Source: Fidelibacterota bacterium (GTDB lineage: Bacteria; Pseudomonadota; Alphaproteobacteria; Rhodospirillales; Rhodospirillaceae). From it: a stretch of DNA of 64,000 nucleotides. The DNA lies in assembly GCA_947475295.1 (NCBI GenBank), contig CANJLF010000009.1, positions 1 to 64,000 on the forward strand, read 5' to 3'. How positions within the stretch are numbered: position 1 is the stretch's first letter; each line of letters opens with the position of its first letter. Positions 37,415 through 56,566 of the stretch are shown piece after piece. A model generated the notes under the pieces. It was not told where the DNA came from and did no database searches. It worked only from the letters and a program-made list of their open reading frames with translations. Both the position numbers and the translations under genes were made by a program.

Positions 37415-37448
37415 GGGCGGTTTAAGGCTTTGCATTGATAGTCGCGGG

Positions 37449-41037: not shown

Positions 41038-44000
41038 ATGGTGCTTTCTGATTTTTCGATCAAACGACCGGTCGTCGCCATTGTGGCGAGCCTGCTGCTG
41101 TTGGTCTTTGGGCTCTACGCCTTCTTTCAGCTGCCGGTGCGCGAGACACCGAATATCGAGCGCCCGGTGGTGAACATCGGTGTCAGCTATCAAGGCGCGT
41201 CCGCCGAGGTGGTCGAGTCCAAAGTCGTCAAGGTGATCGAAGACCAAGTCAGCGGCATTCAGGGCCTTGTGGCCATTAATTCGCAGTCCCGCGATGGCTT
41301 TGGCCGCATCAATCTCGAATTCCGCGAAGACGTCAACATCGATACGGCGGCGAACGATATCCGCGACCAAGTGAGCCGCGTGGCGTCGCGCCTGCCGCTC
41401 GATGCCGACCCGCCGGTCATCCAGAAAGCGGACTCAGACTCTGATCCGATCATGACCGTCAACATCAACGGCCCACGGACGCCGATGGAATTGTCGGACA
41501 TAGCAAAGCTCGTGCTCATGCCGCGCCTGTCCTCGGTCGAAGGGGTCGCAACCGTCAATATCAACGGTGGGCGTGAGAAAGCCATGCGGATATGGCTGGA
41601 CCGCCGCGCCATGGCCGCGCGCGGTCTCACGGTGGCCGATATTCAAACCGCGCTTCGCCGCGAAAACATCGAGCTGGGCGCGGGGCAATTGGAGTCAGAA
41701 AGCCGTAACTTCACCCTGCGCACCATTCGCGCCTTCCAGACGCCCGATGATTTCCGCAAGCTGGTGGTAGCCCGCGGTCCCAACAACTATCTCATCCGCT
41801 TGGGCGAGATGGCGACGGTTGAAATCGCGCCCGTCGACATCCACTCGATCTATAAAAGCAACGGTGTACCGCGGACGGCGCTTTCCATCGTCAAGCAACC
41901 GGGTGCTTCGACATTGGATGTCGCCAAAGCCCTCAAAGCCGAGATCGAACTCATCAAGCTGACCCTGCCGCCCGACTTGAACTTGCCGGCGGCACAAGAT
42001 TCGTCGCAGTTTATTGCCGCGGCAATCCATGAAGTCGCGGTCGCGGCGGGCGTATCTGCGGTCCTCGTGATGATTGTGATTTATCTCTTTCTCGGTACCG
42101 TGCGCGCCGCGTTCATTCCCGTGGTCACTGTCCCGATCTCGCTGATCGCCACGTCTATAGTTCTGTGGCCCATGGGTTTCTCGATCAACATCTTGACCCT
42201 GCTCGCCATGGTGCTGGCCATCGGCCTCGTGGTCGACGATGCGATCATCATGCTGGAGAACATCCATCGTCGCATGAAATTGGGCGAGCCGGCGTTGCTC
42301 GCGGCCATGCGCGGCTCGCGTCAGGTCGGTTTGGCGGTGGTTTCCACGACCATGGTGCTGGTCGCGGCCTTTGTACCGGTGGCGCTGATGAAGGGCTCGG
42401 TAGGCGCCTTATTCAAGGAATTTGCGCTGACTATGGCTGTGTCCGTGGTGTTCTCGATGTTCATCTCGCTCACACTGACGCCGGTGATGTGCAGCAAGAT
42501 CCTCACGCGTAAGCTTGACGCCAGCCGCCTCGCGCATATGTCGGAGGAGATCTTCGGAAAACTGCGGACCTTCTATGTCCGGATACTCAACCGCGCCCTG
42601 GACGCGCCCAAAGTCGTGTTGACGGGTTTCGCCGGACTCCTGGCGCTTTCGGCTTTGTTGTTCACATTCCTGCCGCAGGAATTCACGCCGCGCGAAGACC
42701 GTGGACAGGTCTCACTCCAGGCCCGTGCGCCGGAAGGTTCCAACGCCGACTACACCGGGCGCCAGCTGTCCGCCGCCGTCGCCATCATCAAACCCTATGT
42801 CGACAGCGGCGAAGTTGTCCAAGTCTCCGAGAATATCGGCGGCAACAACAACCAGGGCAACTCGAACGTCTGGATGGCGCCGTGGGGCGAGCGGCATCGC
42901 ACCAGCGCCGAATTCGTGGCCGAGATCACGCCGAAGCTGCAAGCCATACCCGGCGCGCAAGTTGTCGCCAGTCTCCCGTCGGGGCTTGGCCGTGGCGGCG
43001 GCGGCGGCGGCGGATTGCAGCTTTCCATCAGCGGTCCCACCTACGATGATCTGCGTGTCTGGCGCGATGCCATGATGGAAGGCATGCGCGACAATCCGAT
43101 GTTCGTCTCGGTGCGCAACAGCTTTGTTGAAAGCAAGCCGCAGGTACGCATCCACGTCGACCGCGTGCGCGCCGGCGATCTCGGCGTTTCCATTGGCGAT
43201 ATCGGCGATGCCCTGGCCGCCATGCTGGGCTCGCGCAAGGTGACGACCTTCGTCGATAAGGGTGAGGAATACGACGTCATTTTGCAGGGCAGGGATTCCG
43301 ACCGCGAAACCCCGGGCGATATCTCGAACATCTACGTGCGCTCGAGCACGACCCGCATGCTTATCCCGCTGTCCAGCCTAGTGACCCTGGAAGAGGGGTC
43401 CTATGCGGATAGTTTCTCGCGCCTCGACCGGCGCCGTTCCATCTCCTTGAATTTCAACCCGCGCACCGACGTCATTCTTGGCGACGCCATCAAGGAAGTC
43501 GAGCGTGTCGCCCAGGAAAGACTGCCTTCAACCGCTCTACTGACCTGGCGCGGCGAGGCCGGCGACTTCAAGGATAACAGTGCGTCGATCTATTTCAGCT
43601 TCGCGCTGGCCCTGGTGGTGGTGTTTTTGGTGCTGTCCGCGCAGTTTGAAAGCTTCATTCATCCCATGGTCATCATGATGACCGTGCCGCTGGCGGTCTT
43701 CGGAGCGCTGATGGGGCTTCTGATATTCGGCCAGAGCATCAATCTATTCTCGCAGATCGGCATTATTGTGCTGGTCGGCCTTGCCGCCAAGAACGGCATT
43801 TTGATCGTCGAGTTCACCAACCAGCTGCGCGATGCTGGCCGCGGTTTTCGTGACGCACTTGTTGAGGCGTCCGCTATTCGCCTGCGCCCGATCATCATGA
43901 CCGCGCTGGCGACGATTATGGGCGCGCTGCCGCTGGTGATCGCCACCGGCGCCGGCTCCGAAAGCCGCCGTCCCATCGGCGTGGTGATTTTCGCCGGCGT

Positions 44001-44175
44001 CGCCTTCGCCGTTGTGATCACGTTGGTGGTCGTGCCGACCTTCTACATGCTGCTGGCCAAACGCACGGGCTCGCCGGGCCGGGTCGCCAGCGAGCTCAGG
44101 GAATACGAAAAAGCGTTCCCGACCAGCGCCAGCGGTCACACCCATCAGCCGCAAGACGGCCAACCTGCGGAGTAA
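41038..44175 (+). CDS. RND efflux pump inner-membrane permease
   Basis: A 1045-aa proton-driven exporter of the AcrB/MexB superfamily (HAE-1). It has the N-terminal FSIKRPVVAIVAS helix, a large periplasmic loop, the DD proton-relay pair in IGLVVDDAIIMLENI, and a second half with VGLAAKNGILIVEF. A Gly run (about residues 652-658) sits in the second periplasmic domain. There is no membrane-fusion or outer-membrane partner gene on either side, so it probably pairs with subunits encoded elsewhere. It follows the ModA-like gene by 46 bp. Confidence 0.95.
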   Translation: MVLSDFSIKRPVVAIVASLLLLVFGLYAFFQLPVRETPNIERPVVNIGVSYQGASAEVVESKVVKVIEDQVSGIQGLVAINSQSRDGFGRINLEFREDVNIDTAANDIRDQVSRVASRLPLDADPPVIQKADSDSDPIMTVNINGPRTPMELSDIAKLVLMPRLSSVEGVATVNINGGREKAMRIWLDRRAMAARGLTVADIQTALRRENIELGAGQLESESRNFTLRTIRAFQTPDDFRKLVVARGPNNYLIRLGEMATVEIAPVDIHSIYKSNGVPRTALSIVKQPGASTLDVAKALKAEIELIKLTLPPDLNLPAAQDSSQFIAAAIHEVAVAAGVSAVLVMIVIYLFLGTVRAAFIPVVTVPISLIATSIVLWPMGFSINILTLLAMVLAIGLVVDDAIIMLENIHRRMKLGEPALLAAMRGSRQVGLAVVSTTMVLVAAFVPVALMKGSVGALFKEFALTMAVSVVFSMFISLTLTPVMCSKILTRKLDASRLAHMSEEIFGKLRTFYVRILNRALDAPKVVLTGFAGLLALSALLFTFLPQEFTPREDRGQVSLQARAPEGSNADYTGRQLSAAVAIIKPYVDSGEVVQVSENIGGNNNQGNSNVWMAPWGERHRTSAEFVAEITPKLQAIPGAQVVASLPSGLGRGGGGGGGLQLSISGPTYDDLRVWRDAMMEGMRDNPMFVSVRNSFVESKPQVRIHVDRVRAGDLGVSIGDIGDALAAMLGSRKVTTFVDKGEEYDVILQGRDSDRETPGDISNIYVRSSTTRMLIPLSSLVTLEEGSYADSFSRLDRRRSISLNFNPRTDVILGDAIKEVERVAQERLPSTALLTWRGEAGDFKDNSASIYFSFALALVVVFLVLSAQFESFIHPMVIMMTVPLAVFGALMGLLIFGQSINLFSQIGIIVLVGLAAKNGILIVEFTNQLRDAGRGFRDALVEASAIRLRPIIMTALATIMGALPLVIATGAGSESRRPIGVVIFAGVAFAVVITLVVVPTFYMLLAKRTGSPGRVASELREYEKAFPTSASGHTHQPQDGQPAE

Positions 44176-44586
44176 GCGGGCCGCCACGATGCTTTCGTGG
44201 CCGGCGCGATGCCCCCAATCCTGGATGGTCTCCGGGCGGTCGAAGGTGAACTCAAGAACGCCGCCTTGATGGCCGGTGTCGGTGGACACGGCCACGGAAC
44301 CTCCGTGCACGACGTCGCGCAGTGCCTTTGGATGTCGCCGATAACAGCGTGCCGAGTTGTGTCGCCGCGAAGGTACAGCGCAAAGCCTCAATATTATTTT
44401 TATGTCCGGACAATATTTTTCTGGTCGAAGGAATTGTGGATGTATACATTATGACCAGTTTAGGCGGGAGGAGAGACTGCGCACCGTATTTGGGCTCAGT
44501 CATTTTTATTTTGGGGGGAACCAATGTCTCTACACTGTATGTATATGTGCGCAACAGCGCATCTTGTCGGCCGGCAGCAAAAATTT
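44176..44586. other. Upstream region of the TonB receptor gene
   Basis: About 410 bp without a convincing gene. The part after 44385 is AT-rich and holds a perfect palindrome TGTCCGGACA (44403-44412), two flanking CAATATT copies and a second palindrome TGTATACA (44441-44448). These are likely promoter and operator elements of the receptor gene. Confidence 0.5.
44403..44412. promoter_or_regulatory. Palindrome TGTCCGGACA upstream of the TonB receptor gene
   Basis: A perfect 10-bp palindrome of form TGT-N4-ACA, flanked on both sides by CAATATT. A related one (TGTACGTACA) lies before the secreted-repeat gene at 50059-50068. Together they suggest a shared regulator, which is not identified. Confidence 0.35.
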
Positions 44587-47451
44587 ATGAAATCGTCGAC
44601 TGCGCTGTCGACCGCTCTTCTTCTCGCAGCGGGTTTACCCGCACCGGTTCTGGCGCAAACGGCAGCGAAACCACAGCCAGCCGCACAAGAGGCCGTTGAA
44701 GAAGTTGTCGTCACCGGCACGCGCATCGTCCGCGAAGGCTATGAAGCCCCGACGCCCCTTTCCGTCATTGATTCTTCCGCGTTGGAAAATAGATCCGACA
44801 CAAATCTTGCGGTCCTCGTTACGCAAATGCCTGCGTTTTCGGGCGCTGGCGGCATAGCCAGCAATACGAGCTCATTTTCGAGTGCTACGCCCGGTCTGAA
44901 CCTATTGAACCTCAGAAACCTGGGCGCCAACCGAACGCTGGTGTTGCTCGATGGTAACCGCGCTGTGGCAGCGTCGAACACGGGGCAGGGCGTGGATATC
45001 GCTTCCTTTCCGTCGCAGCTTGTATCGCGTGTCGATATCGTCACGGGCGGCGCATCGGCTGTGTACGGTTCGGATGCCGTCGCCGGCGTTGTGAACTTCG
45101 TTCTTGATAAGACCTTTACCGGCGTTAAAGCCGATGTCAGCGCCGGCATGACCAATCACAGCGACAAGAGAAGTTGGGCGGCCCAGTTGTCTGCCGGTTT
45201 CGGTTTTGCCAACGACCGCGGTCACGTTCTCTTGTCGGGTGAAGCAACATACGACGGCGGCACCGATGGTGACGGCGGCCGCCAATGGAACCGCGTCGGT
45301 TACCAGGGCATATCGAACCCACTTTACGGTACAGCGGCCGGCCTTTCCACCAGCGTGCCACAGACACTCATGAGGACCCACGTGGGTCGAAATGACGAAA
45401 CACCGGGCGGCATCATTGTTTCCGGTCCCTTAAAGGGCATCGCCTTCGGCCTCGGCGGCGTTCCCTTTGTGTTAAATCAAGGCACCCTGCAGTCTGGGAC
45501 GCAGTTCATCGGCGGCGATTGGGCGTACACGGACGTGCGCGATCGCTATACCCTGGGCCCAAAGCAGGAACGGCAGAGCGTATTTGCGCGCATCGCTTAC
45601 GATGTTACCGACAACTTCAATGTTTACCTTCAATCGTTCTGGACGGATGCGCGCGAGGCGGCCTACAGCGGCCCCCCGTATACAAGCACCGCAGCGACTC
45701 AAGCCGTCATTAAGCTCGATAACGCGTTCCTGCCGGCGTCGGTCAAGGCGTCCATGGTTGCCAAAGGACTCACCCAGATCCAGGTCGGCAGTTGGAACAC
45801 GGACATGGGTTTTGACTATAACCGAGCCAACCGCATCACGACCCAGAGTATCGTGGGGGCGAGCGGCGATTTTGACGCTTTCGGCTCGAACTGGACGTGG
45901 GATGCGAGCGGTTCCTACGGCGCCTCCGTTATGAGCTTCCACTATTACAACCTCATACAGCTTTCGCACTACCGGCTTGCGACGGATGCCGTCCTCGATC
46001 CGGTGAGCAACACCATCGTTTGCCGCATCAAATTGACCGACCCGACCAATCCGTGTCAGCCCTGGAATGCCATGGGAGAACAGGTCAACAACCAAGTGGC
46101 GCACGATTACAATGCCGGCATCCTGGGTTTCGGCCACGCCAAAATCGAGCAGGCCTCTTTCTCGAGCTCTCTGACTGGCGAGCCATTCTCTGTTCCGGCC
46201 GGACCTGTTTCATTAGCGTTAAGCGTGGAGCACCGTATCGATACCGTGCACAACACGACCGACGAAGCGGGGGCTGCTGTTGATCACAACGTAGGAAACC
46301 TTGCGAAGCTCGATGGCAAGATGACCGTCACCGAAGGCGCCGTGGAAACCGTCATTCCGCTGTTCAATGGCATGTCGTGGGCGGAAAGTTGGGATCTCAA
46401 CGCGGCGGCCCGTTTCACGAGCTACAGCGACGCGGGTTACGTGACGACGTGGAAAGTGGGAACCACCTATACGCCGATCGACGACATCAAATTCCGCTTC
46501 ACGCGGTCTCGCGATATTCGCGCTCCCAACATTTTTGAAAGTTTCTTGCCGGTAAGTTCACCAGGGCAGTCGCCGGCGACGGATCCATTTACGGGCACGC
46601 GGCCAAGCATACGCAGTTTCAATAGAGGCAACGTCAACTTGGTTCCGGAAAAAGCGGACGAGACCGGTATCGGCGTGGTGTTGGCGCCGCGTTTCCTTCC
46701 GGGCTTCACGGCGTCCGTCGACTATTGGGATGTGAAGGTCAAAGACAATATCATCAATCTCACTACTCAAAACATCATCGACGCCTGCTACAATGGGACT
46801 GAACCAGCTTTGTGCGCGGACATCACTCGCGTCAACGGCGTCATTACCACGATAAATACTGGATTCCGAAACATCGCGGTCCAAGATGCCAGGGGTCTCG
46901 ACGTCGAGGCGAGCTACCGCTTCAACGCATCCCAATTGCTTTCAAGCTGGGACGGCGACGTCACGCTGCATAGCAATGCGACCTTCTATCTGAGAAATTA
47001 TGAGGATCGCGGCTTCATTCCTCCCACCAATCACGTCGGTGAAAACAGTGGCAGCTCCGGTCCGCCGTCGTGGAGAATGACAACCACGGCGACGTATCGG
47101 TTGAATCCGATAACGGTTTCGTTGTCCGGCCGTGCGGTCAGCGCGGGTGTAATCAATAGTGAATTTGTTGAATGTACGTCAGGCTGCCCAGTGTCGACGA
47201 CCGCTCACCAGACGATCGACAACAACCATATTGCGGGTGCGGTCTATTTCGATACGAACATCCAATATGATTTTGACGTTTCGGGTGCGCAAGCGACGGC
47301 GTATTTCTCGGCGAAAAATATCTTTAACAGGAGTCCCGTGCTAAACGTGGCTCCGAATGCCTTGCCCTATTTAAACTTGGGGATCAATGGGACGGGGCTT
47401 TATGACAGCTACGGAATTGTGTACCGCGCGGGGCTGCGCTTTAAGTTCTAA
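44587..47451 (+). CDS. TonB-dependent receptor
   Basis: A 954-aa outer-membrane active transporter. A signal peptide (ALSTALLLAAGLPAPVLAQ) is followed by a TonB-box-like EEVVVTGTRIVREG and the plug domain (for example LNLRNLGANRTLVLLDGNR and GGASAVYGSDAVAGVVNF). The beta barrel ends in GLRFKF with terminal Phe, as required for barrel assembly. ATG 44587 was chosen because it begins the signal peptide; a start at 44524 adds 21 unrelated residues. It heads an accessory block of exported proteins, and a decayed copy of its 3' end lies at 56020-56127. Substrate unknown; the large size fits oligosaccharide, peptide or metal-chelate uptake. Confidence 0.95.
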   Translation: MKSSTALSTALLLAAGLPAPVLAQTAAKPQPAAQEAVEEVVVTGTRIVREGYEAPTPLSVIDSSALENRSDTNLAVLVTQMPAFSGAGGIASNTSSFSSATPGLNLLNLRNLGANRTLVLLDGNRAVAASNTGQGVDIASFPSQLVSRVDIVTGGASAVYGSDAVAGVVNFVLDKTFTGVKADVSAGMTNHSDKRSWAAQLSAGFGFANDRGHVLLSGEATYDGGTDGDGGRQWNRVGYQGISNPLYGTAAGLSTSVPQTLMRTHVGRNDETPGGIIVSGPLKGIAFGLGGVPFVLNQGTLQSGTQFIGGDWAYTDVRDRYTLGPKQERQSVFARIAYDVTDNFNVYLQSFWTDAREAAYSGPPYTSTAATQAVIKLDNAFLPASVKASMVAKGLTQIQVGSWNTDMGFDYNRANRITTQSIVGASGDFDAFGSNWTWDASGSYGASVMSFHYYNLIQLSHYRLATDAVLDPVSNTIVCRIKLTDPTNPCQPWNAMGEQVNNQVAHDYNAGILGFGHAKIEQASFSSSLTGEPFSVPAGPVSLALSVEHRIDTVHNTTDEAGAAVDHNVGNLAKLDGKMTVTEGAVETVIPLFNGMSWAESWDLNAAARFTSYSDAGYVTTWKVGTTYTPIDDIKFRFTRSRDIRAPNIFESFLPVSSPGQSPATDPFTGTRPSIRSFNRGNVNLVPEKADETGIGVVLAPRFLPGFTASVDYWDVKVKDNIINLTTQNIIDACYNGTEPALCADITRVNGVITTINTGFRNIAVQDARGLDVEASYRFNASQLLSSWDGDVTLHSNATFYLRNYEDRGFIPPTNHVGENSGSSGPPSWRMTTTATYRLNPITVSLSGRAVSAGVINSEFVECTSGCPVSTTAHQTIDNNHIAGAVYFDTNIQYDFDVSGAQATAYFSAKNIFNRSPVLNVAPNALPYLNLGINGTGLYDSYGIVYRAGLRFKF

Positions 47452-47487
47452 ATCATAGAATTTATTGCGCGTGGTGGCGTCCGGATC

Positions 47488-47524
47488 TGCGGTTTCGGTC
47501 ATGAGTTCCATGACCGAAACCGCA
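47488..47524 (+). terminator. Perfect 16-bp hairpin after the TonB receptor gene
   Basis: TGCGGTTTCGGTCATG pairs fully with CATGACCGAAACCGCA around a 5-base loop, 37 bp after the receptor stop. An outer CTGCGG/CCGCAG pair may extend it. The T7 tract comes only 22 bases later, so it is not a standard intrinsic terminator. It could protect the receptor mRNA 3' end or act in attenuation between the receptor and the next gene. Confidence 0.5.
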
Positions 47525-47579
47525 CCTGGGTGCGCCGCAGATTAATTTTTTTATTGATAGTTATTAGGAGAGAAAGCGT

Positions 47580-48179
47580 ATGAAAAAAAATACATTTTTG
47601 GGAATGCTTATCGTTGGAACCGCGCTTGCGGGGACAGCTTTGGCGCAAAGTGCACCGCCGTTGGCGATCACCCTGCCCGCAACCCAAACCTCCGGAACGT
47701 TGACGGTTAGTTCGTCAACCTACAAATCCGGCGCAGCCATTCCGCTTGATAATTCGTCGTACGGCAAATCCAATTCCCCCCAAGTGACTTGGACAGCCGG
47801 TCCAGGCACCACCAAATCCTATGTCGTCCTCATGGAAGACCCGGACGCGCAGATTGAAGGCAAACCCATCATTCACTGGGTTGCTTATGATATTCCCGGT
47901 TCCGTTACATCGCTGCCTGAAAATCTGCCCAAGGAAGCCGCCGTGGCTAATCCCAAGGGTATGATGCAGGGCATGCACGTCGCGAAGGGCCCCGGCTACT
48001 TCGGACCGAAGCCGCCGCTCGGCGCCGCTACGCACCACTACCACCTCGAAGTTTTTGCGGTCGACAAGGTGTTGGGACTTGCGGCGGGCGCCACCAGAGA
48101 AGACGTGCTTGCCGGTATCAACGGCCATGTACTCGCCAAAGGCGAACTCGTGGGACTCTATACGCCGGCAGCGAAGTAA
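47580..48179 (+). CDS. Secreted YbhB/YbcL-type (Raf kinase inhibitor-like, PEBP) protein
   Basis: A 199-aa protein with a signal peptide (MKKNTFLG-type start, cleavage after TALAQ) and the phosphatidylethanolamine-binding-protein fold: MEDPDAQIEGKPIIHWVAYD with the ligand-pocket Asp and His, and a GYFGPKPPLGAATHHYHLEV segment. Bacterial members bind small phosphorylated ligands or have unclear roles. AGGAGAGAAAG precedes the ATG. It follows the TonB receptor by 128 bp and is closed by a strong terminator, so the two may form one transcription unit with partial read-through. Confidence 0.92.
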   Translation: MKKNTFLGMLIVGTALAGTALAQSAPPLAITLPATQTSGTLTVSSSTYKSGAAIPLDNSSYGKSNSPQVTWTAGPGTTKSYVVLMEDPDAQIEGKPIIHWVAYDIPGSVTSLPENLPKEAAVANPKGMMQGMHVAKGPGYFGPKPPLGAATHHYHLEVFAVDKVLGLAAGATREDVLAGINGHVLAKGELVGLYTPAAK

Positions 48180-48241
48180 ATCTCGGGAGAGATACGCCGA
48201 CGTTTATTTGCTTAACTGGCAAACAAACATCGTAGTTTGAA

Positions 48242-48274
48242 GCGGCCATCCATTTACAGGATGGCCGCTTTTTT
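48242..48274 (+). terminator. Rho-independent terminator
   Basis: Perfect 10-bp stem GCGGCCATCC / GGATGGCCGC with a 7-base loop, followed directly by T6. It ends the transcript of the YbhB-like gene. Confidence 0.93.
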
Positions 48275-48708
48275 GTGGAAATATGTGCTGGCGTTGACAC
48301 GCTTACGGCGGACTAAAGCGTGGTCTCTGCGGCGAGGAAAGTGTTGCCGAGGTTAGTCGCAGACTCGATGTTGGGCGGTTTCAATTTCAAAGCCGCGCGC
48401 AAATGGGGCGCTGCGGTCAATAAATCACGGCATTGACAATTAGAGAACGCTGAGGCTGCCGTGAGGCTCGCCCCAGTCGGAAGCGCGGGTAATGGCTTTC
48501 TGCACCCGGTTTGACGGCGATGGCCTAAACCAGAGTTAGCTCGCGCTAAAGATCTCGTCCTAGCATTATTAGAGGACTTGCCCAAGGCACCCTGGACGCG
48601 ATCAAGTATCCAAAGCGTACGTCCAACACCGGCTTCTAGTCTGCGATGCAACAGGTCGGAGACAACACATTTGATCGCTTGGTCGCAACCACTTAAGACC
48701 AATCCTTG
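48275..48708. other. Gene-poor stretch, possible remnant
   Basis: About 430 bp between the terminator and the end of the AbrB-type permease gene. A stop-free minus-strand frame (48313-48702, 129 codons) exists but its product is rich in Arg, Ser and Thr with no recognisable fold. The plus strand shows several interrupted frames, one with a weak transposase-like helix-turn-helix look (about 48320-48380). The stretch may hold a decayed gene; nothing firmer can be said. Confidence 0.4.
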
Positions 48709-49812
48709 CTAAGCGATCCCGCGTCGCTCCGCCCAGCGCGCACCGGCACGGGCAATGGTAGGCCCTACCAACATCACCAGCAAAAAGCGTGACGTCTGCA
48801 TCGCCATCACGAAGGGCAGATCGACCTTGGAACCGGCGGCGATGATCGCTACGGAATCAGCCCCTCCGGGGCTTGTCGCAAGATAGGCCGTCAGCGCGTC
48901 GGTTCCGAGGGCAAAATGCAGAAGGGCCGCTAGGCCGCCGCACAGGACGATCAAGATAATTGTCGAAGCAGCAATGCGCGGGAACATACGCGCCGCGTGA
49001 TGCACGATGTCGCGCGTAAACCGCATTCCGATGGTCCAGCCCAGGAGGGCATACGGGACCGCCATAAGCCACGGCGGCAGCGACAGCTCAACCTGTCCGC
49101 TGACAGACAAAGCGAGGCCGAGGACGAGAGGCACGAGCAAGGCGCCGGCCGGGATTTTCAATCTGGAGCCCACAATGGCGCCACCGGCCGCCACGGCGAT
49201 GGTAGCGGCTAAAGCATTCCACTCGAATGGAGGAAACCAATTAGAGGCCATCGCGGCCGCTTCGTGAGAGCCGGTCCATAATCGCGCGACGACGCTCGCG
49301 ATTATGGCCACAAAGATCACCCGCAGGAACTGCATAAAGGCCACAAGGCGGACGTCGCCACCATAGGCATCGGCCATCAACACCATTACCGTCGCCGCAC
49401 CGGGCGCTGATCCCCATACCGCCGTAGTTCCCGGCAGCATGCGAAGCCGCGCAAGAAGAACACCCAGCACGCTACTGAACAGAATGACGGCGGACGCAGA
49501 GGCCAAGAAGATCGGCCATTGTGTGGCAATCCTGTGCGAGGCGCCGGGGCCGATACCGATACCGTGGACGATCAGGCAGCCGATCAACCCTTGCGAAATA
49601 AGATACGGCCACTTTGGTACGATAACTTGACCGCCGAAGAACGCGGCCAGCAGGATCGCGGAGAGCATGGGGCCGAGAAAAAGCGCTGCCGGAAGGTGGA
49701 TAAGCTCGAGTACGACGACGAAAGTGAGCGATACTACGACCAACACGCTCCATTGCCAGGCCGCGGGCTTGTCCCGGAATGTCCAGGCATCCGGTCCTTT
49801 CATATCTTCCAT
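48709..49812 (-). CDS. AbrB-family membrane protein (AmoA/AbrB permease type)
   Basis: A polytopic inner-membrane protein, about 367 aa from ATG 49812, with about ten hydrophobic segments in two similar halves (AbrB duplication). Typical blocks are LFLGPMLSAILLA, RMLPGTTAVWGSAPGAATVM and, in the second half, TAYLATSPGGADSVAIIAAGS. Annotation pipelines often call this family a regulator or ammonia monooxygenase; it is a membrane protein of uncertain transport function. ATG 49803 and an open frame back to 49908 are alternatives. It is the only minus-strand gene inside the 44-56 kb block. Confidence 0.85.
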   Translation of the reverse strand: MEDMKGPDAWTFRDKPAAWQWSVLVVVSLTFVVVLELIHLPAALFLGPMLSAILLAAFFGGQVIVPKWPYLISQGLIGCLIVHGIGIGPGASHRIATQWPIFLASASAVILFSSVLGVLLARLRMLPGTTAVWGSAPGAATVMVLMADAYGGDVRLVAFMQFLRVIFVAIIASVVARLWTGSHEAAAMASNWFPPFEWNALAATIAVAAGGAIVGSRLKIPAGALLVPLVLGLALSVSGQVELSLPPWLMAVPYALLGWTIGMRFTRDIVHHAARMFPRIAASTIILIVLCGGLAALLHFALGTDALTAYLATSPGGADSVAIIAAGSKVDLPFVMAMQTSRFLLVMLVGPTIARAGARWAERRGIA

Positions 49813-50145
49813 GGCGGGCTCACAGAGGCGCATTCGGAACACGAGACTGGCGGCGGGCTTTGAAACCGGTAGGGCAGGGGCCGAAAGCACGGCCTGGAGT
49901 TCCTTCAAAATCCCAATGATCTGTTCTCCGCTGCGGCCTGACCGATTTTCTGTACCAGTCGTGATGAAACTCTACTGCATCACTAAGCGCCCAAAATTGC
50001 TCGCGCTCGTCCAATGCTGCAGTGCGGGATAAAAATCGTGCACTGAATAGTTACAAAATGTACGTACACCTTGGACTTGAAATGACCTACAACATATATG
50101 ATACTATAAGCACTCAACTCACCATCAATCCTAATGTGGTCGATT
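49813..50145. other. Divergent promoter region
   Basis: About 330 bp between the AbrB-type gene (minus) and the secreted-repeat gene (plus). The right part (50040-50145) is AT-rich and contains the palindrome TGTACGTACA (50059-50068). No gene seen. Confidence 0.5.
50059..50068. promoter_or_regulatory. Palindrome TGTACGTACA upstream of the secreted-repeat gene
   Basis: Perfect 10-bp palindrome of form TGT-N4-ACA about 80 bp before the start codon, in an AT-rich promoter-like stretch. It is similar to the one upstream of the TonB receptor gene at 44403-44412. Confidence 0.35.
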
Positions 50146-51534
50146 ATGAAACTCATGCAAAAAGCGCTCTCTATTTCGATCGTCGCATTCGCAGCTCTGG
50201 CGGGTGTGCCTACATACGCGGCGGCTCCGAAAGAAGACTACGTTCAAGCGCCGATGCCTCCGGGTTTTCAGGTCATCGTCTCCGAAGTCGAAGGGCCCGT
50301 TTTTACGAACGCAGAAGGGCGCACGCTATATATGTGGCCCAAGCGCGCACGGCGATCCGGTCTTCAAGTTGGCGATGAGGTCGGTGTGTCGTCTTGCGGC
50401 AATGAGGTTGTTCGCGAGACCAGCGGGGGAGCGAGCCCGTATGCAGCTGGGTTCGAACTGCCGGGGAACGATACACGACCTGCGTGTACGCAAGTTTGGC
50501 CGCCCGTTTATGCCGCAGCCGACGCGAAGCCAGTTGGCAGATGGTCAGTGATCAAGCGTACCGACGGACGTATGCAGTGGGCTTATGATCGCCGTGCGTT
50601 GTACACATCCGTTTTGGACAAGCAGCCCGGTGACGTATTCGGGGGGACTAATCTTCCCAGTCAAGGCGAGGGCGGCGGCGAACGGAAACCGGTCGGGCCG
50701 AAATCAAATGTGCCCGCGCAGTTCGCCGTCCACACAACGATGACGGGTCGGTTTGTCACTGTGCGCAGTGGCCATTCTGTCTATACTTACGATGGCGACG
50801 GTCGTAACAAATCTAATTGCAAAGACGCATGTTTGGATGAGTGGTCGCCGGTGTTGGCGGCAGCTTCTTCAGAATCTGTTGGTGAATGGACAAATTTCGA
50901 ACGCGTGCCCGGCATACATCAGTGGGCATTCCGTGGACGCCCCGTTTATCTACGCCAGACGGATCTGGAGGAGGGAGAAAGGGTGAATGCCGATGTGCCC
51001 GGCTGGCACAATGTCTTTACCCAAATGGTGCCTGCGCCCCCCAAAGATTTTGCTATGAAAGCCACGCTCGTTGGAACGGGGCTTGGGGATTCCAAGGGCA
51101 TGACCGTCTACCGCTATATTTGCGTTGAGGATGGAATCGATAACCTCGGTTGCGATACCCCGAACGATCAGCAAATTTACCGCTTCGCGATGTGCGGCGG
51201 CGGTGATCCAGATTTATGCGTAAAGACGTTCCCCTATGTAATCGCCCCGGTAGGTGCGAAAACCGGCAATCGCGTCTGGGGTACGATGTATATCGATCCT
51301 AAAACCGGAAAGCGGACCGAGGACAAAGCTTCAGGCGCGCTCAATGTTTGGACTTTCCGCGACCGCCCAGTTTACACGTTTGCGGGTTATCGTGGCTATG
51401 GTGACAGTAATCCGAGCGAGCTCAAGGCCCATGGATGGGGCGAGGGGAACGCCGGATACAATGGATATATGGCGATGATTTATCGCGACGGAACCGGCGA
51501 CAAGCGAGATGGCTCCATCGGCGGCTATCGCTAA
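50146..51534 (+). CDS. Secreted protein with three degenerate repeats (PF03640/COG4315-like)
   Basis: A 462-aa exported protein with a Sec signal peptide (LSISIVAFAALAGVPTYAAA). The mature part holds three units of about 120-150 residues. Each has a GxTLY-like strand (GRTLYMWP, HSVYTYDGDG, MTVYRYI), a Trp/Phe-Pro block (WPPVYA, WSPVLA, FPYVIA) and a closing W-x-aromatic-x-x-R motif (WAYDRRALYT, WAFRGRPVYL, WTFRDRPVYT). This matches the secreted repeat of unknown function family; each unit also carries one or more Cys. ATG 50146 was chosen, with ATG 50134 as alternative. It starts a row of four plus-strand genes for exported proteins. Confidence 0.8.
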   Translation: MKLMQKALSISIVAFAALAGVPTYAAAPKEDYVQAPMPPGFQVIVSEVEGPVFTNAEGRTLYMWPKRARRSGLQVGDEVGVSSCGNEVVRETSGGASPYAAGFELPGNDTRPACTQVWPPVYAAADAKPVGRWSVIKRTDGRMQWAYDRRALYTSVLDKQPGDVFGGTNLPSQGEGGGERKPVGPKSNVPAQFAVHTTMTGRFVTVRSGHSVYTYDGDGRNKSNCKDACLDEWSPVLAAASSESVGEWTNFERVPGIHQWAFRGRPVYLRQTDLEEGERVNADVPGWHNVFTQMVPAPPKDFAMKATLVGTGLGDSKGMTVYRYICVEDGIDNLGCDTPNDQQIYRFAMCGGGDPDLCVKTFPYVIAPVGAKTGNRVWGTMYIDPKTGKRTEDKASGALNVWTFRDRPVYTFAGYRGYGDSNPSELKAHGWGEGNAGYNGYMAMIYRDGTGDKRDGSIGGYR

Positions 51535-51575
51535 AGATGAATTATTTGATACGTGAACAAAAAAGGGAGAGTGGC

Positions 51576-52724
51576 ATGAAAACTCAACAATCGGCATCGC
51601 GAAAGATTTGGCTCGGCAAGACGGCCATCGCAGGATTGGCCGCCGCGGCATTTAGCGCCGCCACCGTTGGCGCGAGTGCCGCCCCGCCGCCTGGTCGCAC
51701 GATTGCCTACGCCGTGACCGACCGCGTAGAATCTACTTATGAAACGAAAGACGCCAAAGAGGAATGTCCCGACGGGCTCTATGCGATGGGCGCGCGCGAG
51801 CAGTTCGCGGACTCGTTTCCGAATACCGAAGGTAAGAAGGCGGACGGTACGAGATGGACCGTCGCGGAGACTTCTCTCGCGCGCGAAACCGAGGTTTGGT
51901 TTCCGAACTTAGGGCCGGGCAAATATCCGACTAAGGAAGTGAAGGGTAAAATTAGCTTTGGCCTGAACCTTGACGGCAAGGTCAAGGACTCCGATTTCAC
52001 GGCACCCGACGGTACGCCTGGCATAGACAATCAGTTCTACCGCGCGACGGGGTGCATCGAGAGTTATCGCGACGGATCGTCGCAACGCCTTTTCTATACT
52101 GAATTTTTAGAATCTCGGAACTTCAATCGCACTGTCATTGAATTGACGGATGTCGACAGCCTGGAAAACGACGATGACGTAGTGGTCACAACGTACCGCG
52201 GTCTCGATACTATGGCCAAAGATGCCAAGGGAGAATTCGCGGTGGATGCGACCCAGCGCGTCGACGGGGAATTTGGTCAGTACTTCGTTCGTAATTTCAA
52301 AGCTAAAATCGTGGATGGCACACTGATCTCATCGCAACCCGGGGAATTCGTTTGGCCGAATGAAAACCATACGGACGCAGCAACTGAAATTATGCGCGAC
52401 GCGCGTTTTCAGATGAAGTTGACCCCGGAAAAGATGGACGGCATTGTCGCCGGCTATCTCGATGTGGAAACCACCTATCGGGCGTCGATGAAACGTTACG
52501 GCACGCATCAAGCCAGCTACGGCAAACTGGCGGGTGGATCGATATATAAAACCTTGCGCAAGTTAGCCGATGCTTATCCAGACCCGAAGACGGGCGAGAA
52601 CACGGCGATTTCGGGCGCTTTGAGTATTAAAGGCGTTCGGGTGCAACTCGTCCATCCGGACAAGAAGGTCGCGGATGTGAACACGGCGCCACAGCTAAAA
52701 CGCTTGGCCTCGGCCGGGGAATAG
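51576..52724 (+). CDS. Secreted hypothetical protein of the DUF1592/DUF1552 block
   Basis: A 382-aa protein starting at ATG 51576 after AGGGAGA. A signal peptide (KIWLGKTAIAGLAAAAFSAATVGASA) leads into a soluble acidic domain with two Cys (EECPDGLY, TGCIESYRDG), possibly a disulfide, and several beta-rich stretches (for example LENDDDVVVTTYRGLD). I do not recognise a family. It lies 41 bp after the repeat-protein gene and 87 bp before the DUF1592 gene, so it probably works with them at the cell surface or in the periplasm. A 12-bp hairpin follows it. Confidence 0.75.
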   Translation: MKTQQSASRKIWLGKTAIAGLAAAAFSAATVGASAAPPPGRTIAYAVTDRVESTYETKDAKEECPDGLYAMGAREQFADSFPNTEGKKADGTRWTVAETSLARETEVWFPNLGPGKYPTKEVKGKISFGLNLDGKVKDSDFTAPDGTPGIDNQFYRATGCIESYRDGSSQRLFYTEFLESRNFNRTVIELTDVDSLENDDDVVVTTYRGLDTMAKDAKGEFAVDATQRVDGEFGQYFVRNFKAKIVDGTLISSQPGEFVWPNENHTDAATEIMRDARFQMKLTPEKMDGIVAGYLDVETTYRASMKRYGTHQASYGKLAGGSIYKTLRKLADAYPDPKTGENTAISGALSIKGVRVQLVHPDKKVADVNTAPQLKRLASAGE

Positions 52725-52752
52725 TCAACGGACGCGAAAGCGATAGCTTTAG

Positions 52753-52782
52753 GTTGCTGCCCGCGTCGCGGGCAGCAACTTT
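52753..52782 (+). terminator. 12-bp hairpin with short T tract
   Basis: GTTGCTGCCCGC / GCGGGCAGCAAC closed by a 3-base loop and followed by TTTA, between the hypothetical and DUF1592 genes. The short T tract suggests partial termination or mRNA stabilisation within the operon. Confidence 0.6.
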
Positions 52783-52811
52783 ACGAAGTGGCTTAAAAAA
52801 GGGCGAAGAAA

Positions 52812-54545
52812 GTGGTTTTGTATAAAAAAATCTTACATCTTGGATCGACAACATCGAGAAAGGTTTCGTCGGCTTTTGCGGCGATACTGGTCGCGACGAC
52901 GATGTTGGCGGGTGGGCCCTTCGGTATTGCCGCGAATTCTGGCTTGGCGGCAAATGTAGCGAAAGATGCGGGCACGGCGGATATTGGCACGCCTAAGCAT
53001 ATGCGATTGCTGACCTTGCAGCAGTACATCAATACAATTCAGTATTTTTTCGGCCCCGACATTAAAATCGATGTGAAGTTCGCGCCGCTTCCGCGCGATG
53101 GAGGCCTGCTTATGGCCGGAGCTTCGGTGGGTGGCGTCAGCGACTCACAAATTGAGACTTATCAAAAAATCGCCAATCTGGTGTCCTTGCAGGTTGTCGA
53201 TGCCGACCACAGGGGTGCACTGTTTCAGTGCAAACCGGCAGATGAGAGAGCCGCCGATGATGCCTGCGCAAGCAAGTTCCTGACGCGCGTCATCGATTAT
53301 CTATACTTCATACCGCCGCCCAAAGAGCACGTCGCGAAAATGGTTGATCAAGCCGGCGTGGTGGCAAACCGCCTCAATAGTTTTTACTCTGGAATCCAAG
53401 TCGTTCTCGAGAGCGTGCTCTTGAATCCCAACGTGCTTTTGGTCGTGGAAAATGAAGAGCCTGATCCCAAGAACCCTGGCCACATGCGCTTGGATGCGGC
53501 GTCGCAGGCGTCCCGCTTGAGCCTGTTTTTATGGAATGCTGCGCCGGATCGGACTCTACGCACAGCGGCCAGTCGCGGCGATTTGTTTGATAACAAAAAA
53601 CGCGCCCGTGTTGTTGACGCAATGTTGGCCAGCCCGCGGCTAGAGATGGGAACACGCGCCTTCTTCGACGACATGTTCGGCTTGGAAGGCATGGAAACCG
53701 TCACCAAAGATGCTAACACCTATCCGTATTTTCTTGGCAATCTCGTATCCGATGCGCGCGAACAGACATTGCGCACGGTCGTCAACCTATTGCTGACTAA
53801 AAACGGCGACTACAGAGATATCTTTACGTCGCGCGAGACCTTCATTTCGCCGGGGTTGGGAGTTCTCTATGGCGTAAAGGGGTTGCCAGGCTGGAGAGCG
53901 TACGAGTTTCCACCCGAAGCTCATCGCGCCGGCATTCTGACGCAAGCAAGTTTCCTTGCAATGAACTCCCATTCGACGCGCAGTTCTCCCACGTTGCGGG
54001 GCAAGGCACTGCGTGAGCTAATTCTTTGCCAGAAGGTTCCGCCGCCGCCGGCCAACGTCGATTTTTCGGCGGTCGAAAATCCCGATCCGAGCCTCAAGAC
54101 CGCGCGGCAACGGCTCGATCTTCATCAAAAAAATCCTGCGTGCGCAGGCTGTCACAAGATTACGGACCCCATCGGTCTTGCACTGGAGAATTTCGACGGT
54201 GCCGGCCGCTATCGTGATAACGAAAAGGGTGAGAAGATTGATCTCAGAGGCGTCGTCGATGGCAAAGCTTTCACAGATATTGAAGGCATGAGCCAGGCGA
54301 TACACGGTAGTCCGGCAGTGCCAAAATGCCTGGTACAGCGCGCTTTTACCTATGCGACCGCGGGCGTCTTGCCTCAATCGACCGCCCCTGTTCTGGAGGA
54401 TCTAAATAAGACGTTCGCCTCGAACGGCTATCGTCTGAAGCCGTTGTTGCGCGCGATTACGCTGAGCCCCGCGTTCTCTAAAGTCGACGAGGCCAGCGCG
54501 GCGCCGGCTGAGAAAAAAAGCGCGAGCGCTTCGCCAACGAATTAA
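52812..54545 (+). CDS. DUF1592/DUF1588/DUF1585 family exported protein with CXXCH motif
   Basis: A 577-aa exported protein from GTG 52812, with a signal-like N-terminus (AFAAILVATTMLAGGPFGIAA). Domains in order: a DUF1587-like start (RLLTLQQYINTIQYFFG); DUF1592 (SRLSLFLWNAAPDRTL and following); DUF1588 with the haem-type CAGCH and DPIGLALENFDGAGRYR; and a DUF1585-like end (LVQRAFTYATAGVLP). This family was first noted in planctomycetes, usually paired with DUF1552, and its function is not established. The single CXXCH implies a c-type cytochrome-like domain. It is shorter than planctomycete forms, lacking their N-terminal extra domains. It precedes the DUF1552 gene by 37 bp. Confidence 0.88.
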   Translation: MVLYKKILHLGSTTSRKVSSAFAAILVATTMLAGGPFGIAANSGLAANVAKDAGTADIGTPKHMRLLTLQQYINTIQYFFGPDIKIDVKFAPLPRDGGLLMAGASVGGVSDSQIETYQKIANLVSLQVVDADHRGALFQCKPADERAADDACASKFLTRVIDYLYFIPPPKEHVAKMVDQAGVVANRLNSFYSGIQVVLESVLLNPNVLLVVENEEPDPKNPGHMRLDAASQASRLSLFLWNAAPDRTLRTAASRGDLFDNKKRARVVDAMLASPRLEMGTRAFFDDMFGLEGMETVTKDANTYPYFLGNLVSDAREQTLRTVVNLLLTKNGDYRDIFTSRETFISPGLGVLYGVKGLPGWRAYEFPPEAHRAGILTQASFLAMNSHSTRSSPTLRGKALRELILCQKVPPPPANVDFSAVENPDPSLKTARQRLDLHQKNPACAGCHKITDPIGLALENFDGAGRYRDNEKGEKIDLRGVVDGKAFTDIEGMSQAIHGSPAVPKCLVQRAFTYATAGVLPQSTAPVLEDLNKTFASNGYRLKPLLRAITLSPAFSKVDEASAAPAEKKSASASPTN

Positions 54546-54582
54546 ATTGCTGCAAATTCATGACTAAGTAGGAGCGAAAAAT

Positions 54583-55920
54583 ATGCTGAAAAATTTTTCT
54601 CGTCGTCGCGTGCTTCGCGGCATGTTGAATGGTGGCGCCATTACGGTCGGGTTGCCGCTCCTCGATTGCTTCCTGAATAGCAACGGGAATGCCTTTGCTG
54701 ATGGCAAGCCAATGCCGGTGCGCTTCGGTACCTGGAGCTGGGGCCTTGGCATGACGCACGACCTTTTCGTGCCGAAGAAAACCGGCAAGGATTTCGAGTT
54801 CCCAGAAGAAATCGAAGCGCTCAAACCCTATCGGGACAATATGAACGTCCTTACGAACTTCGTGGGATTTCGCGACGGTGCCGCGCTGGTAGGCCACTCA
54901 ACAGCCTGGATCATTTCGCGCACTGGAAATCCACCCACCCCCGCCCAAGGGCTTTCCGATGGAACGTGGGATATTAAGGTCGCCAATCATATCGGCAGCC
55001 GAAATCGCTTTAAGACCTTGACGGTCACGGCCGCGGGGCATGCGCGTGCTTCGTATTCGTATGAAAACCCGAATACGGTCAATGCGTCCGAATATTCGCC
55101 GCTTCAATTCTATGCACGTTTGTTTGGGCCCGAATTTACGGATCCGAACGGCAAGGACTTTAAGCCCAGCCCGCTCGTGATGTCGCGCAAAAGTGTGCTG
55201 TCGGTGGTCATGGAAGATATGAGTTGGCTCAATCAGCGTGTCGGCGCAGCGGACAAGGAGCGTCTTGATAAATATTTCACAGGGCTGCGTCACCTTGAGA
55301 ATCAATTAGATCAGCAGCTAACGAAGCCAGAGGCCATCGAGGCCTGCCGTCCCGTGGAGCCAGGGAAAGATAATGTGCATATGGGCCTCGAATCTCCGTC
55401 CATCGTTGTGCGAAATAAAATGATGTCGGATCTGCTTGCGATGGCTGTCGCGTGCGACCAAACGCGCGTGCTCAACATGGCCTACGCCGACATGTCTTCG
55501 AATACGGTCAAACCGGGATATGACAAGCCTCACCACACGACCACGCACGAAGAGCCGGTCGACGAGAAGGGCCACCAGCCGAACTGCTCGTGGTTTACGC
55601 GTCGTTGCATGGAAGGGTTTGCTACTTTCCTGCATTCTTTTTCGGACATCAAGGAAGGCGATGGTACGCTGCTCGATAATATGCTGATCGTGGCCGACAC
55701 CGATTGCGGCAGCGCTCGCACGCACTCCTTGGACGACATACCGATGTTCACCGCGGGCCGTGCCGGCGGAAAGTTCAAGACCGGCTTGCATATCGATATG
55801 AAGGGTGCGCCGATGTCGCGGATGGCTCTCACCGCAATGCGTACGCTGGGAATGGACCTTCAGAAGTTTGGTGGGGGAACCAATCTGACGTCTGACTCCA
55901 TTAGTGAGATTGTGGTTTAG
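54583..55920 (+). CDS. DUF1552 family protein with Tat signal
   Basis: A 445-aa protein. The N-terminus SRRRVLRGMLNGGAITVGLPL is a twin-arginine signal, so it is exported folded, probably with a cofactor or metal. The body matches DUF1552: RFGTWSWGLGMTHDLFVP, SLKNLT-like GHSTAWIISR, and the late LDNMLIVADTDCGSARTHS. The fold is related to sulfatase/DUF1501-like proteins. Partner of the DUF1592 protein encoded 37 bp upstream; such pairs recur in several phyla, but their reaction is unknown. AGGAG precedes the ATG. A strong terminator follows within 4 bp. Confidence 0.9.
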   Translation: MLKNFSRRRVLRGMLNGGAITVGLPLLDCFLNSNGNAFADGKPMPVRFGTWSWGLGMTHDLFVPKKTGKDFEFPEEIEALKPYRDNMNVLTNFVGFRDGAALVGHSTAWIISRTGNPPTPAQGLSDGTWDIKVANHIGSRNRFKTLTVTAAGHARASYSYENPNTVNASEYSPLQFYARLFGPEFTDPNGKDFKPSPLVMSRKSVLSVVMEDMSWLNQRVGAADKERLDKYFTGLRHLENQLDQQLTKPEAIEACRPVEPGKDNVHMGLESPSIVVRNKMMSDLLAMAVACDQTRVLNMAYADMSSNTVKPGYDKPHHTTTHEEPVDEKGHQPNCSWFTRRCMEGFATFLHSFSDIKEGDGTLLDNMLIVADTDCGSARTHSLDDIPMFTAGRAGGKFKTGLHIDMKGAPMSRMALTAMRTLGMDLQKFGGGTNLTSDSISEIVV

Positions 55921-55923
55921 TGA

Positions 55924-55958
55924 GAATCGCGCGCGGTTCGCCGCGCGCGATTCTTTTT
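55924..55958 (+). terminator. Strong rho-independent terminator with UUCG loop
   Basis: Perfect 13-bp stem GAATCGCGCGCGG / CCGCGCGCGATTC closed by TTCG, then T5. Placed 3 bp after the DUF1552 stop, it ends the operon. Confidence 0.95.
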
Positions 55959-56019
55959 CACTCCGAATAGAAGCCAACCGATAGACGGTGCGCATCCGAG
56001 CGGTCAGCTCGGGTCGAAT

Positions 56020-56127
56020 CAACGCGGCTCCTAATTCCCCATGCTAAATAAACTTGGCGACGACTGGGGCGGGGATCTATGACATTTCCTGAATTGTGTA
56101 CCGTGCGGGGCTGCGCTTTAAATTCTA
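56020..56127 (+). pseudogene. Remnant of the 3' end of a TonB-dependent receptor gene
   Basis: Read in one frame, this stretch gives AAPNSP, stop, INLATTGAGIYDIS, stop, IVYRAGLRFKF and a final stop. The intact receptor at 44587-47451 ends VAPNALPYLNLGINGTGLYD, then SYGIVYRAGLRFKF. The match covers about 35 codons with two nonsense changes, and the DNA similarity appears to continue about 40 bp past the stop. It is a decayed copy, not expressed as a receptor. Confidence 0.85.
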
Positions 56128-56350
56128 AAAGGCAGAGAAAATTCGCGCGTGCGTAGCGTCGCCCAGATCCGTCGACCCATGATTTCCCCCTCTTGTTCCG
56201 GCTCAGCGACGCCAAGCACGCCCTGCACAATCCTAAACCTAAAGCCATGCCGGTCCATCTCCTTCCGCAAGGATAACGGCATCCGATGGCCGTCGCCTCG
56301 GGTGCTCCCTAACACATTGAATTTATTTAAAGAAAATGAATTTGTGGGCG
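56128..56350. other. Gap between TonB remnant and tRNA-Ser
   Basis: The first about 45 bp resemble the sequence after the intact receptor gene. The rest has a minus-strand open frame (to about 56330, with SLRKEMDRHGFRFRIVQG) that I cannot assign; its 5' part runs into the tRNA region. It may be a fragment of another gene. Confidence 0.4.
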
Positions 56351-56440
56351 TGGCGGAAGGGGTGAGATTCGAACTCACGGAGAGCTTACACCCTCGCCGG
56401 TTTTCAAGACCGGTGCCTTAAACCACTCGGCCACCCTTCC
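56351..56440 (-). tRNA. tRNA-Ser (anticodon TGA)
   Basis: Class II tRNA on the minus strand. The acceptor GGAAGGG pairs with CCCTTCC, the anticodon stem CCGGT/ACCGG encloses CTTGAAA (anticodon TGA), and a long variable arm follows. The T arm is GTGAG-TTCGAAT-CTCAC, the discriminator G, and an encoded CCA ends the gene at 56351. It borders the accessory block; no integrase or att duplication was seen. Confidence 0.97.
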
Positions 56441-56566
56441 GGAACGCGTGCAGCTTATAGCAAACTTCCGGGGCACATTTGAAAGAGTGTTTTTGATCAC
56501 GCCGAACGTGTAGAAAAAAGCCCTAAGGCCCGGAAGATGGGCGCGGGGACTTGGAGACTTATTGTT

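Follow-up and report, generated by a model that had tools for sequence, protein, structure and literature searches.

The stretch of DNA analyzed here (the window; 64,000 nucleotides of contig 9, CANJLF010000009.1, of the Fidelibacterota bacterium genome GCA_947475295.1, which comprises 2.70 Mb in 43 contigs and is 97% complete) raises the question of whether six plus-strand genes for exported proteins, ranging from a TonB-dependent receptor (TBDR) to a DUF1552 protein, form a single system, as an initial annotation had proposed, and what such a system might do. Pfam and NCBIfam searches found all six genes, with the families as they had been read. A minus-strand AbrB-type gene between the PEBP-like gene and the Lipoprotein_15 repeat gene had been overlooked, and the block is not one unit, since this gene splits the TBDR and PEBP genes from the four genes that follow. 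These last four plus-strand genes, for which we use the short names LP15, U, PSD, and HX, constitute a conserved cassette.

The host genome contains four such cassettes, namely that of the window and those designated C6 (LP15-U-PSD-HX), C13 (PSD-HX-LP15-U), and C4 (U-LP15-U-PSD-HX-LP15). All four PSCyt3 genes found in this genome and all five of its large LP15 genes lie in cassettes, with two short LP15 genes on C14, and the genes outside cassettes amount to 2 of 6 for HX (a tandem pair on C14) and 1 of 6 for U (on C16). A pattern-based, non-exhaustive scan for U in a collection of 84,980 species, using an alignment of five U proteins and two peptide patterns, yielded at least 50 loci, including those of Steroidobacter agaridevorans, Peristeroidobacter soli, Kordiimonas aquimaris, Sphingomonas cavernae, and Phenylobacterium. 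Adding stretches of the host genome and its relatives gave a set of 75 loci (loci are denoted by L numbers below), many of which bear “Candidatus Marinimicrobia” titles that look doubtful, given their likeness to alphaproteobacterial metagenome-assembled genomes. Complete four-gene sets were present in 61 of the 90 core gene runs, and three simple orders, which are circular permutations of each other, covered 47 of these 61 runs (25, 15, and 7). Adjacent core genes were co-directional in 248 pairs and opposed in none, and the intergenic gaps were 50 bp or shorter in 190 of 216 cases, with a median of 13.5 bp. Among 87 U runs, 5 consisted of U alone, and 13 of the 20 incomplete U runs break off less than 1 kb from the stretch end. 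Chance falls far short of explaining how the last four genes are grouped, and the neighborhood analysis suggested in the initial annotation found the DUF1592 and DUF1552 genes conserved in relatives together with the genes of LP15 and U. In the multi-genome searches, which scored at most 5–9 candidates per genome, 5 of the order’s 199 genomes contained U, each of them with 6–9 matches among those listed. At the phylum level, U was found in 2 and HX in 8 of 398 genomes; two of the eight HX genomes also have U (G000 and G273), and the G273 locus (L113) holds U, PSD, and HX, without LP15.

Membership of the first genes of the block in this grouping was not supported. Homologues of the PEBP gene were present at 2 of the 75 loci, one being the window and the other C6, where the gene (L011:3-404, plus strand) is truncated by the stretch edge and lies 4.1 kb upstream of the cassette, with further genes in between; the remaining 73 loci had none, and PEBP was rejected as a cassette member. 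As the stretches around the host’s other cassettes also lacked a TBDR, the idea of a single six-gene system was not borne out. No homologue of the AbrB-type gene was observed at any of the other loci compared. Two sets of cassette genes in the host stand apart from cassettes: the tandem DUF1552 genes (L014:7113-9854, minus strand), on a contig without a DUF1592 partner, are preceded on the same strand by a histidine kinase gene (identified by eye) and a TonB receptor gene, and the lone U gene (L114:2172-3302, minus strand) is accompanied by none of the others over the 12 kb read.

Co-evolution of the four proteins was examined in 40 of the 61 complete cassettes, those with one near-full-length copy per gene. 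The distance matrices of the four proteins correlated with r values of 0.83–0.93, and the best of 999 label shuffles reached 0.33. Because part of this correlation could stem from shared species history, we also compared cassette pairs within genomes (n = 31), which gave r values of 0.64–0.93 (p ≤ 0.002, label shuffles). These values lie close to the best shuffle, with U-PSD slightly under it (0.705 vs. 0.709), a small margin that is due to the fact that genomes hold only 3–5 such cassettes. The window HX shares 59% identity with a gammaproteobacterial copy (L017), as against 47–52% with the HX proteins of the host’s other cassettes. Taken together, these data demonstrate that the four proteins co-evolve, paralogues within genomes included.

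All four proteins bear export-type leaders. LP15, in which the signal peptide, judged by eye, probably begins at 50146, matches PF03640 over two stretches with 87.6 bits against a cut-off of 24.4; of the three repeats originally described, Pfam scores two, and the third is read from the conserved Cys/Tyr pattern in alignments. Eight cysteines (C88, C118, C229, C233, C330, C340, C354, and C362) are each conserved in 41–45 of 45 aligned LP15 proteins. The 382-aa U protein, with its translation start at 51576, had been called unrecognized, and rightly so: it matches nothing in Pfam and nothing near a cut-off in NCBIfam, and the family of 46 aligned members gave only isolated matches with E above 0.01 against both. 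C64 and C160 are invariant in the U family (46 of 46). An AlphaFold2 (AF2) model of U (pLDDT 85.9) had no Foldseek match at E ≤ 0.001 among solved structures, and VIA matched it at best to small beta-barrels (Z 5.3), a score that belongs to the common background. U is thus a family outside Pfam and NCBIfam, and its predicted fold is perhaps new, poor fold matches being no proof of this. Neither LP15 nor U of the window has a lipobox (by eye). Profile searches for solved relatives found none for LP15, and the best E values for U, PSD, and HX were 0.35 or worse.

PSD carries the PSD3, PSD4, PSCyt3, and PSD2 domains over the Pfam cut-offs; it scored 19.8 bits against PSD5 (DUF1595), under the cut-off of 34.2, and showed a sub-threshold match to DUF1800 (E 0.035). 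The CXXCH motif noted earlier in this DUF1592 protein is CAGCH at residues 444–448, and a CXXCH motif is present in 34 of 34 aligned proteins, alongside the further invariant cysteines C140, C152, C406, and C506. The motif was found in 0 of 45 LP15, 0 of 46 U, and 0 of 36 HX proteins, and these were rejected as further cytochromes. Two of the four host PSD copies have lipoprotein-type leaders (by eye). The reading of HX as a protein exported by the twin-arginine translocation (Tat) pathway also held up: an RR pair at residues 7–8 is present in 36 of 36 proteins, and the host genome encodes TatC as well as CcmF. HX matches PF07586 with 156 bits (cut-off 30). In place of the H-x-x-S-H-H motif, which we take to be implied by the family name HXXSHH, it has H318-x-x-T/S-H322-E323 in 36 of 36 proteins, with Glu instead of the last His; H105, D130, H318, H322, E323, H381, and H403 are invariant (36 of 36), and T/S107 is conserved. 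The AF2 model of HX (pLDDT 84.6) aligned with ENPP7 (5tcd_A) at a VIA Z of 17.3 (248 residues, root-mean-square deviation 3.5), and the best Foldseek match had E 1.4e-4 and TM 0.38. Residues 34–445 are accordingly predicted to adopt the alkaline phosphatase (AP) superfamily fold.

We then considered what lies beside the cassettes. TBDR genes were the most frequent operon-like neighbors (12 genes at 11 loci). Complete cassettes had a TBDR gene within 4 kb on 11 of the 36 upstream sides tested (10 on the same strand) and on 5 of the 40 downstream sides tested; in both L033 and L096, one TBDR gene between two cassettes is counted twice, giving 14 genes in all. The profile was built from the relatives of the window receptor and misses other receptors. 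The 16 TBDR genes of the host would place one on about 2.4% of 4-kb sides by chance, and more in TBDR-rich genomes. A TBDR is thus a frequent but optional neighbor of the cassette, and membership of the receptor in the window’s own system was not borne out. Genes for electron carriers (cytochrome c', cytochrome b561, high-potential iron-sulfur protein (HiPIP), and cytochrome c) were present within 4 kb at 13 of 79 loci, with confirmation by Pfam in L028, L062, and L120 only. Further recurrent neighbors encode creatininase-like, amidase, HpaI-like, and major facilitator superfamily proteins, as well as keto-acid dehydrogenases (by eye). Creatininase-family proteins with export-type leaders (by eye) are encoded on the same strand beside the cassettes of L012, L019, L025, L030, and L095, the family having been checked with Pfam in L012.

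A tblastn search of 72,556 plasmids found U in 13 and HX in 15, mainly of Sphingobium TomTYG and TomMM strains, which come from a set of isolates of alpha-tomatine-treated soil, according to the part of PMC10653915 consulted. In L120 and L124, a TBDR gene and then a divergent gene (for an AraC-type regulator in L120) precede a contiguous row of U-PSD-HX and the genes for cytochrome c' and cytochrome b561, and LP15 is missing. KshA_C exceeds its Pfam cut-off near both cassettes, and the best NCBIfam models nearby are HsaC and HsaA in L120 and IpdE2 in L124, all under the equivalog cut-off. L125 holds PSD-HX with b561, and U lies elsewhere on the same plasmid; in L121, a second cassette of TomTYG74, a VOC-like gene (by eye) follows instead of the cytochrome genes. 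The U gene of L120 (Sphingobium herbicidovorans pMSHV, 12004-13349) is split over two frames, by either a real break or a sequencing error. A plasmid of Novosphingobium RL4 (L122:9766-16805) carries, in one co-directional row where the record has no gene annotation, genes for cytochrome c', an LP15-like protein, U, PSD, HX, a VOC-like protein, HiPIP, and b561.

Adjacent PSD and HX genes also occur outside the genomes with U. We fetched five such loci (L115–L119; G571, with a marginal HX match, was omitted), and PSD adjoined HX in all five, with both genes caught by our own profiles in four and the second gene of L116 by a PF07586 match. These pairs share adjacent PSD and HX genes with the window, whereas neither U nor LP15 was found in the 12–18 kb read at each of the five loci. 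The five PSD proteins comprise 853–2369 aa, and four of them are fused to further domains: CBM26, GSDH (a pyrroloquinoline quinone-type dehydrogenase domain), and cytochrome domains in L116 and L118, with GSDH and cytochrome c domains in two of the five, and immunoglobulin-like or PKD domains in L117 and L119. The PSD of L115 has the PSD series only. The PSDs of L116 and L118 recall Cbp2D of Cellvibrio japonicus and TERTU_3803. In the excerpts consulted, Cbp2D, TERTU_3803, and TERTU_2913 are exported, have a proposed redox role, and contain a CxxCH module, X132, whose C-terminal copy in Cbp2D/TERTU_3803 has no characterized homologue (PMC10916295, PMC8981238). Judging from its position and a small N-terminal DUF domain, X132 may correspond to the PSD module. 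Unlike the cassette proteins, Cbp2D-type proteins are multi-domain, with carbohydrate-binding modules (CBMs) and YceI-like, X122, or dehydrogenase-like domains, and have been studied for cellulose and lytic polysaccharide monooxygenases (LPMOs); an LP15/U cassette is not described for them in the parts consulted of PMC8981238, PMC10916295, and PMC12542752. The PSCyt3 genes of Verrucomicrobia are likewise similar in their PSCyt/PSD domains and cytochrome c motif, in usually adjoining a second unknown gene family, and in their large numbers in some genomes; they differ in that some have CBMs, and the section consulted names neither DUF1552 nor LP15 or U (PMC5615132). In passages of PMC5122149, DUF1800-DUF1501 pairs resemble PSD-HX in that two DUF genes adjoin and a twin-arginine motif occurs in one of them, but these are other families, found with chitin synthase genes and without LP15/U. 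In the open-access literature, supplements not included, we found no paper on the DUF1592/DUF1552/Lipoprotein_15 set, nor any that DUF1552 and DUF1592 share, nor an experiment on a receptor-fed redox step of this kind.

These results suggest that the cassette probably performs a redox step not described before, which would act outside the cytoplasm on compounds imported through the outer membrane. To the more specific reading, that LP15-U-PSD-HX is one extracytoplasmic unit, a periplasmic electron-transfer module duplicated and adapted for various imported substrates, we give about an even chance. In such a unit, PSD would bind a c-type heme covalently and pass electrons, and HX, exported folded via Tat, would bind or activate the substrate at an unusual, His-rich putative metal site of its AP fold. 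LP15 and U may be dedicated exported partners for binding, docking, or electron exit. The electron path would most likely link the unit with either a periplasmic cytochrome or the quinone pool, and in several sphingomonad relatives the route may be the cytochrome c' and cytochrome b561 encoded beside the cassette. The substrate would enter via the outer membrane, often through a neighboring TonB receptor. A redox role appears most likely because of the electron-carrier neighbors and the dehydrogenase/cytochrome fusions of some homologues, and the receptor and catabolic neighbors suggest imported substrates that differ between paralogues. Since several divergent cassettes per genome adjoin different catabolic genes, duplication may have directed the module to a range of compounds. 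The redox step fed by an uptake receptor, as first envisaged for the block, would thus remain the best-supported reading (CXXCH motif, electron-carrier and TBDR neighbors), with the six-gene unit abandoned. On a bolder view, which we regard as tentative and rather doubtful, this is an undescribed extracytoplasmic oxidoreductase system of an AP-fold protein, a c-type heme protein, and two dedicated partners, one from a new family and perhaps of a new fold, which alpha- and gammaproteobacteria have multiplied into substrate-specific paralogues as a general means of initiating the breakdown of imported plant- or steroid-type compounds.

Several observations weigh against the redox module. HX has a hydrolase fold, which favors hydrolysis over redox chemistry, and we know of no redox enzyme with an AP fold. 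The parts can come apart, as seen from the four Sphingobium stretches without LP15 (L120, L121, L124, and L125), the PSD-HX pair of L125 without U, and the LP15-U pairs without PSD-HX in L018 and L044. No TBDR was found in the stretches read around the host’s other three cassettes (that of C4 stops at the contig end), and in the window an opposite-strand gene stands between the TBDR gene and the cassette. Loci with electron-carrier neighbors are a minority; several belong to related sphingomonads, one has them on the opposite strand only, and their count was made post hoc, with queries from those same loci and no background rate.

The first of these points leads to the proposal that HX acts as a genuine hydrolase, of a phosphatase, sulfatase, or phosphodiesterase-like kind, that the cassette hydrolyzes a sulfated or phosphorylated import, and that the PSD heme has no role beyond redox upkeep or sensing. 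The HX model does match ENPP, PafA, and sulfatases at VIA Z scores of 16–17, with the Foldseek values given above. In TomTYG65, about 6.5 kb separate the lone U gene from mdsA, which is annotated as a sulfatase gene, and sulfatase genes adjoin PSCyt genes in Verrucomicrobia, as far as the section seen of PMC5615132 goes. We nevertheless consider this proposal unlikely, as the heme motif of the partner PSD is invariant, and sulfate or phosphate genes were absent from the annotated recurrent neighbor families, most neighbors having been left unannotated. The HX sequence points in the same direction: positions 50–53, at the end of the first strand, are mostly T, W, variable, and W, with no Asp where the AP-superfamily metal ligand presumably sits (a position placed without superposing residues). 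Lower still is the probability that the four proteins make up a surface complex associated with the receptor, with SusD-like capture and redox being secondary. The rank of TBDR genes as the most frequent operon-like neighbors and the lipoprotein-type leaders of two host PSD copies would fit such a complex, but TBDR genes occupy a minority of the tested sides, the window LP15 and U lack a lipobox, and the heme motif of PSD is invariant. No SusD model was among the Pfam and NCBIfam matches of the six block proteins, and regular TBDR pairing, as expected of a SusCD-type uptake locus, was not seen.

Breakdown of steroids or saponins is suggested by the Sphingobium plasmids, where the cassettes with TBDR, cytochrome c', and b561 genes lie about 4–11 kb from KshA (L120 and L124) and, in the same range, from HsaC-like, HsaA-like (L120), and IpdE2-like (L124) genes. 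The origin of the TomTYG and TomMM isolates from alpha-tomatine-treated soil is in line with this (PMC10653915, in part), as is the contribution of a TBDR to estrogen use by Novosphingobium (PMC7793797, in part). Four KshA_C matches barely over the cut-off were obtained in G188, a genome that belongs to the same family and carries the cassette. However, the KshA domain, the single marker tested, was found in neither the host genome nor three cassette-bearing genus mates, and the genes beside other cassettes are of the creatininase, amidase, HpaI-like, or keto-acid dehydrogenase type; steroids are thus not supported as the window’s substrate, and as a general function we hold this very improbable. 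At the bottom of the scale we place electron donation to LPMOs, as proposed for Cbp2D. DUF1587/1592-type modules do occur in Cbp2D-like proteins, and the CjX183 domain of Cbp2D is able to reduce LPMOs (PMC8981238, in part); growth on insoluble cellulose requires cbp2D (PMC12542752, in part). On the other hand, the X183 domains of Teredinibacter failed to drive its LPMO (PMC10916295, in part), the window PSD has neither a CBM nor a second cytochrome domain in Pfam, and LPMO_10 (PF03067) was absent from all six cassette genomes, a search that did not extend to other LPMO families. The idea is largely refuted for these genomes.

The extracytoplasmic redox module is therefore the reading we retain. 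The four-gene cassette adds two dedicated partners to the PSD and HX families, and with the Sphingobium plasmids, U-PSD-HX is available in isolates that carry catabolic genes and a ready-made electron route next to it, so that the function of these families becomes testable by plain gene deletion.

The features of the window are listed in Table 1.

Table 1. Features of the block and its borders (positions in the window)
Feature	Position	Strand	Evidence
TonB-dependent receptor (TBDR), 975 aa	44524..47451	+	PF07715 E 5e-16, PF00593 E 6e-23; relatives beside other cassettes
Exported PEBP/YbhB-like protein	47580..48179	+	PF01161 E 1e-31; TIGR00481 over its cut-off
AbrB-duplication integral membrane protein	48709..49908	-	PF05145 E 9e-88; TIGR03082 over cut-off
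LP15, exported Lipoprotein_15 repeat protein	50134..51534	+	PF03640 E 4e-25
U, exported 382-aa protein	51576..52724	+	outside Pfam/NCBIfam families
Strong RNA hairpin, U-PSD gap	52746..52789	+	-28.5 kcal/mol, z -5.9; no T run
PSD, DUF1587-DUF1592-DUF1588-DUF1585, one CXXCH	52812..54545	+	PF07626, PF07631, PF07627, PF07624 over cut-offs
HX, DUF1552 (HXXSHH), Tat-type signal	54583..55920	+	PF07586 E 1.9e-45
Intrinsic-terminator-like hairpin, 15 pairs + T run, directly after HX	55922..55955	+	-28.8 kcal/mol, z -5.8
Remnant of TonB receptor gene 3' end	56021..56160	+	blastn, 77% identity to 47344-47481

Given the terminator-like hairpin directly after HX, the natural unit extends over approximately 50134-55955, and the gap between U and PSD within it, 87 bp long, holds the other strong hairpin. 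The receptor remnant sits just past the cassette terminator, and a second receptor may once have lain 3' of the cassette, as in some relatives. The block is adjoined by a tRNA gene (56354-56440, minus strand), followed by mtnP (56537-57460). A tRNA-Ser gene lies near mtnP in three relatives, and since tblastn found no block genes beside mtnP in four relatives (stretches of 8.7–19.5 kb), this site appears to be variable. Immediately upstream of the TonB receptor gene is a complete RND-type transporter gene (41038-44175; ACR_tran E 1.4e-283), and two FkbM-like methyltransferase genes, recognized by eye from their translations, flank the region at 37383-38384 (plus strand) and 58647-59438 (minus strand).

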